This document shows, one piece after another, positions 48,132 through 64,000 of a stretch of 64,000 nt of DNA. The stretch lies in contig NZ_CP109479.1 in the NCBI RefSeq assembly GCF_036227485.1, positions 5,580,001 through 5,644,000 of the forward strand. Reading direction: 5' to 3'. How positions within the stretch are numbered: the first letter of the stretch is position 1; every line of letters begins with the position of its first letter. The notes below the pieces were generated by a model. The model was not told the DNA's origin. It saw nothing but the letters and a program-made list of their open reading frames with translations, and did not search any database. The translations under genes and the position numbers were made by a program. Origin of the DNA: Streptomyces sp. NBC_01451. Lineage in GTDB: Bacteria; Actinomycetota; Actinomycetes; Streptomycetales; Streptomycetaceae.

Positions 48132-49985
48132 ATGCCCGAGCTGAGGTCCCGCACAGTCACCCACGGCCGCAACATGGCGGGCGCCCGCGCCCTTATGCGC
48201 GCCTCCGGTGTACCGGGTGCCGACATCGGGCGGAAGCCGATCATCGCGGTCGCGAACAGCTTCACCGAGTTCGTGCCCGGCCACACCCACCTCCAGCCGG
48301 TCGGCCGTATCGTCAGCGAGGCCATCACCGCCGCCGGAGGCATCCCGCGCGAGTTCAACACGATCGCCGTCGACGACGGCATCGCGATGGGCCACGGCGG
48401 CATGCTGTACTCCCTCCCCTCCCGCGACCTCATCGCGGACTCGGTCGAGTACATGGTCGAGGCCCACTGCGCCGACGCCCTGATCTGCATCTCCAACTGC
48501 GACAAGATCACCCCGGGCATGCTGAACGCCGCACTGCGGCTCAACATCCCCACGGTCTTCGTCTCCGGCGGCCCGATGGAGTCCGGCCGGGCCACGCTGG
48601 TCGACGGCACGGTCCGCACGCTCGACCTGGTCGACGCGATCTCCGACGCCGTGAACGAGAAGATCTCGGACGAGGACATCCTCCGTATCGAGGAGAACGC
48701 CTGTCCGACCTGCGGTTCCTGTTCCGGCATGTTCACGGCCAACTCGATGAACTGCCTCGCGGAGGCCATCGGACTCGCCCTCCCCGGCAACGGCTCGGTC
48801 CTGGCCACGCACACGGCCCGCCGGGCGCTGTACGAGAACGCGGGCCGCACGGTGATGGACATCACCCGCCGCTACTACGAGCAGGACGACGAGACGGTCC
48901 TGCCCCGCAACGTCGCCACCTTCGCCGCCTTCCAGAACGCCATGGCCCTCGACATCGCGATGGGCGGCTCGACCAACACGATCCTGCACCTGCTGGCCGC
49001 CGCCCAGGAGGCGGGCGTCCCGTTCGACCTGGACGACATCAACGAGGTCTCGCGCCGGGTCCCGTGCCTGGCGAAGGTCGCGCCGAACGTCGCCAAGGAC
49101 CGCACGTACTACATGGAGGACGTGCACCGGGCCGGCGGCATCCCCGCCCTCCTCGGCGAACTGCACCGCGCGGGCCTCCTCAACGAGGACGTGAACTCGG
49201 TTCACAGCTCGTCCCTCGCGGACTGGCTGAAGACCTGGGACGTGCGTGGCGGCTCCCCGTCGCCGGAGGCCCTGGAGCTGTGGCACGCGGCTCCCGGCTG
49301 CGTCCGCTCCGCCGAGGCCTTCTCCCAGTCGGAGCGCTGGGAGGCCCTGGACATGGACGCCGCCGGTGGCTGCATCCGCAGCGCCGAGCACGCGTACTCG
49401 AAGGACGGCGGCCTGGCGGTCCTCAAGGGCAACCTCGCCGTCGACGGCTGCGTCGTGAAGACGGCCGGTGTCGACGAGTCGATCTGGACCTTCGAGGGCC
49501 CCGCGGTCGTCTGCGAGTCGCAGGAGGAAGCCGTCGAGAAGATCCTCAACAAGCAGGTGAAGGACGGCGACGTCGTCGTCATCCGCTACGAGGGTCCCAA
49601 GGGCGGCCCCGGCATGCAGGAGATGCTCTACCCGACCTCGTTCCTCAAGGGCCGCGGCCTCGGCAAGACCTGCGCGCTGGTCACGGACGGCCGCTTCTCC
49701 GGCGGCACCTCGGGCCTCTCCATCGGCCACGCCTCCCCCGAGGCGGCCTCCGGCGGCACCATCGCCCTGGTGAAGGACGGCGACCGCATCCGCATCGACA
49801 TCCCGCACCGCACGATCGAACTCCTCGTCCCGGACGACGAGTTGACGGCCCGCCGCGAGGCCCTGAACGGCGTCTACGCCCCCGTCTCCCGCGAGCGCAA
49901 GGTCTCGCAGGCCCTGCGCGCGTACGCGGCGATGGCGACGAGCGCCGACAAGGGCGCGGTCCGGGACGTGTCACTGCTGGGCTGA
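48132..49985 (+). CDS. ilvD: Dihydroxy-acid dehydratase
   Basis: Dehydrates dihydroxy-isovalerate and dihydroxy-methylvalerate to the keto acids for valine and isoleucine. At 617 residues it has the length of the E. coli type. Fe-S cluster cysteines are in [34 protein letters not shown] and upstream AHCADALI. Other motifs are [44 protein letters not shown] and [27 protein letters not shown] with GCGAGG/GAAG upstream. It is transcribed alone: dispersed repeat before, strong hairpin after. Confidence 0.96.
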
Positions 49986-50004
49986 CCCCTCCCACATCCG
50001 CGTC

Positions 50005-50043
50005 ATGACGAAGGGCCGCTCCTCAGGAGCGGCCCTTCGTCAT
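50005..50043. terminator. Bidirectional terminator between ilvD and the kinase gene
   Basis: A perfect 19-bp inverted repeat ATGACGAAGGGCCGCTCCT / AGGAGCGGCCCTTCGTCAT with a minimal loop lies 20 bases after ilvD and about 57 bases after the kinase stop on the other strand. It suits both convergent genes. Confidence 0.85.
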
Positions 50044-50099
50044 GATCTTCCCGTACGTGCTTCAGACGTCGTACGAGTCCGGGGCGCCCCGGGTCACGG

Positions 50100-57854: not shown

Positions 57855-58664
57855 ATGACCCAGAAAGTCGCAGTCCTCGGCACCGGCAAGATCGGCGAAG
57901 CCCTGCTCAGCGGAATGATCCGAGCCGGCTGGGCCCCCGCCGACCTGCTGGTCACCGCCCGCCGCCCGGAACGGGCCGAAGAACTCCGCACCCGCTACGG
58001 AGTGACCCCGGTCACCAACCCCGAGGCGGCGAAGACCGCCGACACCCTGATCCTCACGGTCAAACCGCAGGACATGGGCACCCTCCTCGACGAACTCGCC
58101 CCCCACGTCCCCGCCGACCGCCTGGTCGTCAGCGGAGCCGCAGGCATCACCACCACCTCCATCGAGGCCCGCCTCGCCACCGGCACCCCCGTCGTCCGCG
58201 TCATGACGAACACCCCGGCACTCGTCGACGAGGCCATGTCGGTCATCTCCGCCGGCAGCCACGCCACCGCCGACCACCTCGCCCACACCGAGGAGATCTT
58301 CGGCGCCGTCGGCAAGACACTCCGCGTCCCCGAGTCCCAGCAGGACGCCTGCACCGCGCTCTCCGGCTCCGGCCCGGCGTACTTCTTCTATCTCGTCGAG
58401 GCCATGACGGACGCCGGCATCCTGCTCGGCCTGCCCCGCGACAAGGCCCACGACCTGATCGTCCAGTCCGCGATCGGCGCCGCGGTGATGCTCCGCGACA
58501 GCGGCGAACACCCGGTGAAGCTCCGCGAGAACGTCACGTCCCCCGCGGGCACCACCATCAGCGCCATCCGCGAACTCGAGAACCACGGCGTACGAGCAGC
58601 CCTCATCGCCGCCCTCGAAGCCGCCCGCGACCGAAGCCGAGCCCTGGCCGCAGGCAACAACTGA
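57855..58664 (+). CDS. proC: Pyrroline-5-carboxylate reductase
   Basis: Last step of proline synthesis (P5C + NAD(P)H to proline). The 269-residue protein has the Rossmann start KVAVLGTGKIGEALLSGMIRAGW, TLILTVKPQDMGTLLDELAP, VVSGAAGITTTSIEARLATGTPVVRVMTNTPALVDEAMSVI and the C-terminal ALSGSGPAYFFYLVEAMTDAGILLGLPRDKA with LRENVTSPAGTTISAIRELENHGVRAALIAALEAARDRS. ATG with GGAGGG 8-10 bases upstream. It converges on trpS, 18 bases away. Confidence 0.95.
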   Translation: MTQKVAVLGTGKIGEALLSGMIRAGWAPADLLVTARRPERAEELRTRYGVTPVTNPEAAKTADTLILTVKPQDMGTLLDELAPHVPADRLVVSGAAGITTTSIEARLATGTPVVRVMTNTPALVDEAMSVISAGSHATADHLAHTEEIFGAVGKTLRVPESQQDACTALSGSGPAYFFYLVEAMTDAGILLGLPRDKAHDLIVQSAIGAAVMLRDSGEHPVKLRENVTSPAGTTISAIRELENHGVRAALIAALEAARDRSRALAAGNN

Positions 58665-58682: not shown

Positions 58683-59744
58683 CTACCGCCCCATGCCCAC
58701 CACGGCCTCGGACTCGCTTGCGGACACGCCCACGGCCTCCACCTCGGAGGCCGCGGGCAGCAGCCCGATCGCGCGACAGGCGGCGTCAACGGTCGGCCGG
58801 GCCATCGCCCGTGCCCTCTCCGCCCCGTCCCGCAGCACCCCCTCCACGAACGCGGGATCCGCGCACAACTCCCGGTGCCGATCCCGCAGGGGTCTGAGAG
58901 CCTCGACCACGGCCTCCGCGACGTCCTTCTTCAATTCCCCGTAGGACTGATACACACCACCCAGTTCCGACGGTTCCCCATCCGTGCAGGCCGCCAGGAT
59001 CTCCAGCAGATTCGCGACCCCCGGCCGCCCCTCCGGGTCGTACTCGACGTCCCGCCCGCTGTCGGTCACGGCCCGCATGACCTTCCTCCGCACCACGTCG
59101 GGCTCATCGAGCAGATAGACGATCCCCGGCCCGACGTCCTCGCTCTTCCCCATCTTCGACGTCGGCTCCTGAAGATTCATGACCCGCGCTCCCACCGCCT
59201 GCCGTGTGGCCCGCGGCACCACGAACGTATGCCCGTACCGCTGGTTGAACCGCACCGCCAGATCCCGGGTCAGCTCGACATGCTGCGTCTGATCGTCCCC
59301 GACGGGCACCTCATCGGCCCCGTACGCCAGGATGTCCGCCGCCATCAGCACGGGATACGTCAGCAACGACAGCCGCACACTCCCACCCCGCGCCCGCTCC
59401 CGTGCCGCCTTCTCCCGGTACTGGATCATCCGCCGCATCTCCCCATCAGAGGCGACGCACTCCAGCACGTACGACAGCCGCGTGTGCTCGTCCACATGAC
59501 TCTGCACGAAGACGGTGCACAGCTCCGGATCGAGCCCCGACGCCAGCAGCAGGGTGGCCGCCTGCCGGCTCAGCCGCCGCACGCGCGCGGGATCATGATC
59601 AACGGTCAGCGCGTGCAGATCGACGATGCAGAACAGGGAGTCAGCCCGGTGCTGGTCCACCGCGGCCCACCGCCGCATGGCCCCCAGGTAGTTCCCCAGC
59701 GTCAGATGCCCGGTCGGCTTGATCCCACTGAAGACCCGCGTCAT
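58683..59744 (-). CDS. trpS: Tryptophanyl-tRNA synthetase, probable auxiliary indolmycin-resistant type
   Basis: The 353-residue class I enzyme charges tRNA-Trp. HIGH-region FSGIKPTGHLTLGNYLGAMR is at the N-terminus; KMSKS loop reads SKMGKSED, a KMGKS variant. Other motifs are LTYPVLMAADILAYGADEVPVGDDQTQHVELTRDLAVRFN. In S. coelicolor the trpS beside proC and the rRNA operon is, as I recall, the auxiliary enzyme resistant to indolmycin, with ribosome-mediated attenuation; the leader below matches. ATG with GGAGG-GGAG upstream. The start lies 11 codons within the open frame. Confidence 0.93.
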   Translation of the reverse strand: MTRVFSGIKPTGHLTLGNYLGAMRRWAAVDQHRADSLFCIVDLHALTVDHDPARVRRLSRQAATLLLASGLDPELCTVFVQSHVDEHTRLSYVLECVASDGEMRRMIQYREKAARERARGGSVRLSLLTYPVLMAADILAYGADEVPVGDDQTQHVELTRDLAVRFNQRYGHTFVVPRATRQAVGARVMNLQEPTSKMGKSEDVGPGIVYLLDEPDVVRRKVMRAVTDSGRDVEYDPEGRPGVANLLEILAACTDGEPSELGGVYQSYGELKKDVAEAVVEALRPLRDRHRELCADPAFVEGVLRDGAERARAMARPTVDAACRAIGLLPAASEVEAVGVSASESEAVVGMGR

Positions 59745-59810
59745 CTCTTCTCCACCTCCTGGTCGAGACCACCGCACCCGGCCGGCCGACCCTCAGGAGA
59801 GAGAAACAAG

Positions 59811-59835
59811 AACGGCCGCCGAGGCGGCGGCCGTT
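59811..59835 (-). terminator. trpS attenuator terminator
   Basis: Read on the minus strand: AACGGCCGCC, loop GCCTC, GGCGGCCGTT, then CTTGTTTCT. It is a 10-bp perfect stem with a U-rich end. The upstream arm (59826-59835) can instead pair with GGCGGCCGT at 59852-59860 to form an antiterminator. Confidence 0.9.
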
Positions 59836-59861
59836 GAGTACATACGTGTGTACGGCCGCCG

Positions 59862-59909
59862 TCAGGCGGCCCACCACTGCTGGGTGCACGTATGCGTAGT
59901 CACGTCCAC
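59862..59909 (-). CDS. trpS leader peptide with tandem tryptophan codons
   Basis: A 15-codon frame, GTG to TGA, encodes MDVTTHTCTQQWWAA. Two consecutive TGG codons lie 4 and 3 codons before the stop, and the stop abuts the antiterminator arm. Ribosome stalling at the Trp codons (uncharged tRNA-Trp) would leave the antiterminator free and let trpS be transcribed; completion of the peptide favours the terminator. It starts 44 bases before the terminator arm. The ribosome site is a loosely spaced GGAGGGGGG at about 59922-59930. Mechanism matches the ribosome-mediated attenuation reported for the S. coelicolor homologue (from memory). Confidence 0.85.
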   Translation of the reverse strand: MDVTTHTCTQQWWAA

Positions 59910-60626
59910 GAGAGTACGCCGCCGGACCCCCCTCCGACACCGAGTTGACACGCCTCAGGCCCCTACGTAGTGTTCTCCGAGTTGTTCGACGTGAGTGCCG
60001 ACCCCGGTCGGTCCCCGAACAGCCATTCCGCAGGTACCAAGCAACGGTCGACGACCTGTCGTCGCGCCGGTGGCATGTTATTGGCATGCGTATTTGCGAA
60101 ATGAGGAATCCGCGTTCGAAAGGGCGCACCCCCCGATTAGCTCGGGAGGCAGGGAATCCGCTAAAGTCTCACTCGTCGGAACGGCCCAACAGCCGGGAGG
60201 ACAAGCCCCACTGACTGGGAATCAGGCCCGAAACGGTCTGGTAGAGTCGGAGTCGCCGGAAAGGGAAACGCGAAAGCGGGAACCTGGAAAGCACCGAGGA
60301 AATCGGATACGGAAACGGTCTGGTAGAGTCGGAAACGCAAGACAGCAGGACAGTACAACAGCAAGAATAGTAGGACCGAAGGGAAACTGCCCGGAGGAAA
60401 GCCTGAGAGTGTTCTTGGGTGAGTACGAAGGAAGCGTCCGTTCCTTGAGAACTCAACAGCGTGCCAAAAATCAACGCCAAGTTTGTTGATACCCCGGCTC
60501 ACAGGCTTTTGTCTGTGGGTTGAGGTTCCTTTGAAGCAGTAAACACAGCGAGGACGCTGTGAACGGTCGGGCTTATTCCGCCTGACTGTTCCGCTCTCGT
60601 GGTGTGACCCGATTACGGGTTGACAT
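59910..60626. promoter_or_regulatory. rRNA operon promoter and leader region
   Basis: These 717 bases have no gene. The left end may hold the trpS promoter (minus strand). The plus strand has -10-like boxes TAAAGT (60162-60167), TAGAGT (60242-60247) and TAGAGT (60324-60329), roughly 80 bases apart. The last two sit in 22-base direct repeats GAAACGGTCTGGTAGAGTCG-GA (60230-60251 and 60312-60333), a typical multi-promoter rrn arrangement. No clear -35 TTGACA is seen for them. Confidence 0.65.
60440..60462 (+). promoter_or_regulatory. boxA-like antitermination site before 16S
   Basis: GTTCCTTGAGAACTCAACAG and adjacent bases closely match GTTGTTTGAGAACTGCACAG at 62440-62460 before 23S. Such paired sites before each large rRNA are expected of rRNA antitermination signals. 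Confidence 0.6.

Positions 60627-64000
<3,374 letters not shown>

Follow-up and report, generated by a model that had tools for sequence, protein, structure and literature searches.

A probable tryptophan leader-peptide attenuator with a conserved additional helix in front of an auxiliary tryptophanyl-tRNA synthetase gene of Streptomyces

The trpS1 locus and its leader

The window, i.e. the whole stretch of 64,000 nucleotides from Streptomyces sp. NBC_01451 that was analysed, carries on its minus strand the gene trpS1 for a tryptophanyl-tRNA synthetase (TrpRS), preceded by a short leader ORF, trpL, and by overlapping inverted repeats; a promoter-like element on the opposite strand faces an rRNA operon. 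The features are as follows.

58683..59744, minus: trpS1, auxiliary-type tryptophanyl-tRNA synthetase (KMGKS, Lys in SGIKP)
59760-59755, minus: AGGAGG ribosome site of trpS1
59801..59810, minus: T-rich tail CTTGTTTCTC of the terminator
59811..59820, minus: segment 4 (GGCGGCCGTT), 3' arm of the terminator
59826..59835, minus: segment 3 (AACGGCCGCC), antiterminator with segment 2 or terminator with segment 4
59840..59848, minus: 3' arm of the candidate lock helix P0, in the linker between segments 2 and 3 (from covariation and the cognate-pairing test)
59852..59860, minus: segment 2 (GGCGGCCGT), read directly
59862..59903, minus: trpL leader ORF, 13 codons (MTTHTCTQQWWAA), GTG start; start and stop conserved among relatives
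59864-59862, minus: TGA stop codon of trpL, read directly
59865..59871, minus: segment 1 (GGCCGCC), pairing with segment 2 to form the protector hairpin P1
59871..59876, minus: tandem Trp codons TGG TGG, the putative sensor; WW is common to 146/151 collected leaders
59887..59895, minus: 5' arm of P0, within leader codons 3-6 (from covariation and the cognate-pairing test)
59911..59916, minus: TACTCT, a -10-like hexamer (TAnnnT) and putative leaderless promoter, 7 nt before the conserved start
59945..59973, plus: divergent promoter-like element TTGACA-17-TAGTGT, facing the rRNA operon
60626-62154, plus: 16S rRNA

Convergent with trpS1, and ending at most 20 bp from its stop codon, is an ORF on the plus strand (57855-58664) that we take to be proC-like.

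A TIGR00233 search identified two trpS genes in the genome. The other gene, at 3,477,403-3,478,386, lies just 3' of an ORF that is presumably glyA-like, has housekeeping motifs, and gave no match to R1, the covariance model built for the trpS1 attenuator. An earlier note on this DNA had proposed that the window TrpRS is the auxiliary enzyme and had pointed to a possible second trpS elsewhere; that gene is present, and both its housekeeping type and the absence of the R1 attenuator from single-trpS genomes (relic G006 aside; see below) support the proposal. Among the loci of the TrpRS1 clade (153 loci with at least 64% identity), which form a set in which some loci recur and the window's own gene is counted twice, Lys in SGIKP is present in 143/153 and KMGKS in 149/153, while Gln and KMSKS are present in 16/16 housekeeping-type loci; this clade marker was derived in the present analysis and not from the literature. 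We take the His of VDLHA in window-type TrpRS to be residue H43, and this His is kept in 151/153 TrpRS1 loci. H43 has been linked to indolmycin sensitivity in the accessible part of PMC4899734. Since the His is kept, an H43 substitution was ruled out as a resistance signature; thus, indolmycin resistance is not readable from this residue and would need another change. TrpRS1 is named as indolmycin-resistant in the accessible part of a review (PMC9437257).

The 3' end of trpL, on the minus strand upstream of trpS, reads CAG CAG TGG TGG GCC GCC TGA, which places two successive codons for the regulating amino acid close to the end of a short leader ORF; these Trp codons and the stop codon lie where the earlier note had placed them (59876-59871 and 59864-59862, read directly). 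A protein search of named genomes gave 457 TrpRS relatives, of which the best 80, all from Streptomyces, were used; two loci with N at the leader (L067 and L076) were left out before alignment, and a W(W/R)AA-stop leader was present in 78/78 readable loci among these best 80 of 457. In the larger collection of 151 leaders, which comprises 79 leaders from the window and the named relatives and 72 from further genomes, mostly of the same genus and some of other genera, the five leaders lacking WW have W-R in its place. L117 and L118 match R1 but, with over 260 nt between leader and trpS1, did not enter the 151; L174 is also absent.

The earlier note had described a leader of 15 codons from the GTG at 59909. 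The frame is indeed open from there (VDVTTHTCTQQWWAA); however, the relatives start at the second GTG (59903), and the upstream start was dropped on the basis of this conservation and of the -10 spacing. Most likely, from the sequence comparison, trpL has 13 codons and starts at GTG 59903. Of 79 leaders (the window and 78 relatives), 69 have a gap of 7 nt between the TAnnnT hexamer and the start, six have one of 6 nt and four one of 10 nt. A wider count over the 151 leaders, which is partly circular because the counting script favours starts with such a hexamer, gave 7 nt in 114, 6 nt in 24, 10 nt in 9, 9 nt in 1 and no such hexamer in 3. Conservation of the start together with a TAnnnT hexamer 7 nt upstream thus points to a leaderless 13-codon leader. 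For Streptomyces lividans TK24, the accessible part of PMC8079986 (2021) describes trpL2 (MMTRTCTQLWRAA) before trpS as leaderless by RNA-seq and as having two hairpins. Based on the hexamer position and on leaderless trpL2, trpL mRNA is probably leaderless, with its transcript starting at or adjoining the leader start codon.

The opposite-strand TTGACA is present in 79/79 leaders and is followed by a TAnnnT after a spacer of 17 nt in 78 of them and of 18 nt in the remaining one. At seven loci chosen for enough upstream DNA, rRNA genes were found in 7/7 (16S in six, and 5S with the end of 23S in L030). The conserved TTGACA-17-TAnnnT and the rRNA genes at these seven loci suggest that the trpS1 and rRNA promoters are probably arranged back to back, and the two may be functionally linked. 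A consensus promoter scan, which requires a closer -10, found no promoter.

Overlapping hairpins and the P0 helix

The arms of the two alternative hairpins proposed in the earlier note proved to be exact complements: segment 2 (59860-59852) can form 9 bp with 59834-59826 as an antiterminator, and 59835-59826 can form 10 bp with 59820-59811. An extra G-C pair closing a 3-nt loop brings the terminator stem to 11 bp, and the tail CTTGTTTCTC, an interrupted T-tract, follows directly. A terminator scan of the window also reports the 59811-59835 hairpin. Antiterminator and intrinsic terminator are mutually exclusive, and protector hairpins (P1 and P0) adjoin the control codons. Folding of 59903-59801 gave -53.3 kcal/mol (z -4.8; 0/200 shuffles as good), and folding of the longer piece 59912-59800 gave z -4.0 (1/200 shuffles as good).

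In the alignment, the antiterminator pairs are kept in 95.9% of cells without any covariation of their own, and segments 1-4 of the 76 leaders show hardly any. This is as expected, because each core segment must serve two partners and therefore hardly varies.

The leader might also act mainly at translation initiation or via Rho instead of by intrinsic termination. The T-tract of the window is interrupted, and in the accessible part of the S. lividans report the annotators saw two hairpins and no U-rich stretch 3' of trpL2, both of which would fit such a mode of action. However, the window has an 11-bp GC-rich stem with a T-rich tail; moreover, ~66 nt separate the end of the hairpin from the trpS1 start, and no hairpin includes the AGGAGG site. 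We therefore regard control mainly at translation initiation or via Rho as very unlikely, and read the element as an attenuator acting by intrinsic termination.

The minimum-energy fold contains an additional helix, P0, in which 59895-59887 in the leader ORF pairs with 59848-59840 in the linker, and which is absent from the earlier note's description. In an alignment (A1) of 76 distinct leaders (three of the 79 were dropped as duplicates; L069 is misaligned and was kept), P0 is paired in 98.4%. For the structure consisting of P0, P1 and the terminator, 17 cells were changed on both sides with pairing kept, 16 of the 17 in P0; this number was reached by 0/500 shuffles, and slid controls gave at most 12. 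Five covariation measures were used in all. The overall covariation score and the percentage paired were also beyond all 500 shuffles; two measures were not beyond chance: 3 pairs showed a double change, a count that 25/500 shuffles reached and a +2 slide surpassed with 4, and as many further pair types as observed arose in 174/500 shuffles.

Because kinship among sequences can inflate covariation counts, a second test compared the pairing of each leader with its own linker and with the linkers of others. From 140 distinct leader-linker pairs, 37 representatives were taken whose leader 5' parts are <80% identical. Among these representatives, the mean duplex energy was -16.0 kcal/mol for cognate and -12.8 kcal/mol for swapped pairs (0/5000 permutations as low). 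The cognate duplex was better than its own mean swap in 32/37 representatives and in 115/140 of the full set, and was >2 sd better than with shuffled linkers in 30/37 representatives. In total, we conclude that the existence of P0 as a helix is well supported by these comparisons.

Base-pair probabilities of the window leader were then computed with assumed ribosome footprints. With no ribosome, P0 and P1 are predicted to form with probabilities of 0.96-1.00, and the antiterminator with 0.00-0.01, for all transcript ends tried. A ribosome placed at the first Trp codon (RNA free from 59861) gives a predicted antiterminator of 0.91-0.93 until segment 4 is complete, after which the terminator is at 0.95-0.96; one at the second Trp codon (RNA free from 59858) gives 0.61-0.70 for the antiterminator. 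Once segment 4 is transcribed, the terminator is predicted to win at equilibrium (0.95-0.97) even with the ribosome stalled; the switch can thus only be kinetic. For a ribosome at the stop codon, the model gives 0.96-0.97 for the terminator and 0.00-0.01 for the antiterminator. The two-state switch put forward in the earlier note consequently holds in these models up to a point: a stall favours the antiterminator until segment 4 is made, but at equilibrium afterwards the terminator wins.

When RNA is free only from 59885, so that P0 is unavailable and segment 1 is free, P1 is predicted to drop to 0.38 and the antiterminator to rise to 0.57 for a transcript ending at 59821 and to 0.92 for one ending at 59815; completion of segment 4 would let P1 and the terminator prevail once more. 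These model states suggest that P1 without P0 does not guard the default state during transcription while P1 with P0 does. Across 38 leaders (the 37 representatives and the window), the antiterminator is predicted at <0.3 in 37/38 with the 5' part free. With the 5' part blocked, it is predicted to rise by >0.2 in 30/38 and to reach at least 0.5 in only 14/38; in L141, blocking the 5' part lowers it. The folding predictions thus give moderate support to P0 acting as a lock that keeps an untranslated leader off.

From these arrangements, the switch would work as follows. Transcription would begin at or adjoining the leader start codon. When both Trp codons are read, the ribosome would reach the stop codon and cover segment 2, so that segments 3 and 4 form the terminator and trpS1 is off. 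Trp starvation, or a block of the housekeeping TrpRS, would leave charged tRNA-Trp short; the ribosome would then stall on TGG TGG and cover segment 1 and the 5' arm of P0, segments 2 and 3 would pair ahead of the synthesis of segment 4, and the polymerase would continue into trpS1. With no ribosome on the leader, P0 and P1 would hold segment 2, and the default would also be off. The ribosome positions and footprints, the induction, the resistance and the role of P0 in vivo are what we infer. In total, a ribosome-mediated transcription attenuator very probably controls the auxiliary TrpRS.

Distribution, gene copy number and a second leader family

R1 was searched in a drawn sample of 295 genomes of the window's genus and matched 198 of them, or 196 after removal of G006 and G022. 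In 12 hand-picked genomes with odd or weak results, all 10 R1 matches with E <=1.1e-5 precede trpS1, and TrpRS1 was found at all 30 and 18 further loci inspected among R1 matches. Three weak matches of 31-35 bits, one each in G006 and G022 and the second one in G207, lack a downstream trpS and were rejected; G006 and G022 were taken out of the attenuator counts.

A single trpS gene is present in 31/295 genomes, and the attenuator is present in 0/31 of these once relic G006 is set aside. Thus, apart from one relic, every genome of the 295 that carries the switch has at least two trpS genes.

The rejected matches in G006 and G022 are relics (L122, 1460-1720, minus strand, and L123, 1440-1700, minus strand, respectively) in which the hairpin and promoter region lie without trpS downstream. 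The G006 relic keeps the hairpin and a TGTCAAC element beside a proC-like ORF, and this ORF resembles the one convergent with the window trpS1.

These relics bear on a further explanation, i.e. that the element is an ordinary terminator by the rRNA operon region, with an incidental short ORF, and that trpS1 is transcribed from a downstream promoter. In favour of this explanation, the weak matches in both G006 and G022 keep the hairpin and the TGTCAAC element without a downstream trpS, and thus the hairpin can persist without the gene. However, the tandem Trp codons, the stop codon, P1 and P0 are all conserved, the coding and non-coding arms of P0 change together, 10/10 matches with E <=1.1e-5 in the 12 hand-picked genomes precede trpS1, and the S. 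lividans transcript, according to the accessible part of its report, starts at the leader. An ordinary terminator with an incidental ORF is accordingly improbable to a high degree, and we retain the leader-peptide attenuator.

An Rfam search found no family at gathering score in the leader; weak matches with E up to 10 (isrD with 25.8 bits versus a gathering score of 37, and seven others) were taken as hairpins or chance. T-boxes control synthetase genes elsewhere, and occur before ileS in several Actinobacteria according to the accessible part of PMC1262725, but a T-box riboswitch sensing uncharged tRNA-Trp directly is exceedingly improbable here, given the lack of a T-box match, both in the window at gathering score and in 59740-60000 with E up to 10, and a putative transcript of ~93 nt to the terminator end, much of which is leader ORF. 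The earlier note's view that the element is not a T-box thus agrees with the absence of a model match in the window and in the leader region, and its assignment to the trp-operon type is borne out by the exact alternative hairpins, the tandem Trp codons, the conservation among relatives and the trpL2-trpS counterpart of S. lividans.

In a search of the family, R1 matched 51/121 genomes in 8/17 genera, and in a search of the class it matched 18/197 genomes, of which 7/18 lie outside the family and are weak. Six of these seven matches, all but G504, were fetched, and a WW-containing leader was present in 5/5 with trpS in the stretch (L174, L176, L177, L178 and L179, from other families of the class, with TrpRS 35-56% identical to that of the window). 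The TrpRS is 56% identical in G543 and G458, 35-36% in G523 and G575, and 37% in G550, whose leader was missed by the first regular expression; the sixth, G521, had no trpS in the stretch taken. Two diverged leaders, L183 (G303) and L185 (G316), occur in other genera of the family, and in L185 the trpS1 match is short, which may reflect a decayed gene.

Sixty-seven genomes with more than one trpS are R1-negative, and 15 of these were examined. Only G067 among them has a near-full TrpRS1, with its leader masked by N, and G036 alone has a fragment. In 11 of the 14 examined multi-copy genomes without intact TrpRS1, another trpS was found, encoding a protein 35-39% identical to the window TrpRS. 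Upstream lies a leader of this second family (type-B), typically MTSVPCRNWWRSS, 6-7 nt 3' of a TAnnnT hexamer. At 10 of 12 loci read (L100-L104, L106-L109 and L111), the type-B leader is predicted to fold into a P0-like helix, a protector and a terminator; two of the ten leaders have R-W in place of W-W. At L105 and L110 a regular expression found no type-B leader, and the twelfth locus read is a different gene, 28% identical. The second family presumably corresponds to the SGR_3809 type of S. griseus. According to the accessible part of PMC6804068, the SGR_3809 product is resistant to indolmycin.

A covariance model of the type-B leader, R2, matches 49/295 genomes, 46 of them among the 67 R1-negative multi-copy genomes. 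It later matched the genome of L105 (G019) and not that of L110 (G026). Of 51 R2 matches, 30 were fetched (L194-L223), and 30/30 precede a second-family trpS. Three genomes match both R1 and R2. R2 scores the window trpL at 25.4 bits (E 8e-4 over 64 kb), and R1 scores five of the ten type-B loci at E 0.1-0.4 and the others not at all. R2 also scores a non-leader site in the window, 49938-50044, at 22.8 bits; this match was rejected as a leader, being the end of a 617-aa ORF, which is presumably ilvD-like, with a terminator-like hairpin.

Altogether, an attenuator match (R1 and/or R2) is present in 242/264 multi-copy versus 0/31 single-copy genomes (Fisher p 5e-28, with the relics G006 and G022 removed and uncorrected for kinship or incomplete genomes). 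The 22 other multi-copy genomes match neither R1 nor R2.

Relation to known systems and a proposed back-up module

The trp operon attenuators of E. coli combine repeated Trp codons with an alternative antiterminator and terminator. An auxiliary TrpRS gene was also the subject of Vecchione and Sello in J Bacteriol in 2010, reportedly in S. coelicolor. The title of that work, as cited in the accessible part of PMC4787780, names an auxiliary, antibiotic-resistant TrpRS gene under ribosome-mediated attenuation; compared by this title alone, the system is like that of the window in that an auxiliary TrpRS gene is controlled by a translated leader. For Corynebacterium and Streptomyces, the accessible part of PMC1262725 describes trp operon attenuators with repeated Trp codons and alternative hairpins, and reports gGCC-rGCy-GGCC triples for such attenuators. 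These attenuators control biosynthetic operons and have different leader peptides, whereas the window element precedes a synthetase gene. The same source, in the part accessible, already predicted in 2005 an attenuator before trpS2 of S. avermitilis, which like that of the window is a classical trp-type attenuator before a Streptomyces trpS; unlike the present analysis, that prediction names one species and comes without lock helix, distribution or gene-copy link. The published counterpart trpL2-trpS of S. lividans shares with the window the leader before trpS, the leaderless start, the two hairpins and a peptide, MMTRTCTQLWRAA, close to MTTHTCTQQWWAA; by contrast, trpL2 has one Trp codon versus two in the window leader, and in the accessible part of the report no U-rich stretch is given and P0 and the divergent rRNA promoter are unmentioned.

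Thus, the type of switch is already known in the genus, and the window element would be a further instance of it. Beyond the known type, the switch of the window has the conserved P0 and the back-to-back rRNA promoter. The literature searched, which covered sources other than the J Bacteriol 2010 paper, yielded no account of P0, the second leader family or the link to gene copy number. Moreover, a switch predicted for one species is present in 78/78 readable copies among the best 80 of 457 named relatives, and further genera of the family have it as well.

We tentatively propose a joint reading, to which we give somewhat less than even weight, that the auxiliary TrpRS genes of Streptomyces form a general 'Trp-tRNA shortage' back-up module. 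It would comprise two non-orthologous families, about 33-38% identical, each with its own leaderless Trp attenuator built on the same three-helix plan; a lock helix, formed by early leader codons and the 2-3 linker, that would keep an untranslated leader off; and, in the trpS1 version, an arrangement back to back with an rRNA promoter. The lock helix P0 would provide a structural reason why a leaderless attenuator need not leak without a ribosome, and since an unrelated auxiliary TrpRS also comes with a leader of its own, such control seems to be favoured wherever a spare TrpRS is kept. If the module exists as proposed, growth rate may govern how much leader transcript is made, with tRNA charging governing its output.
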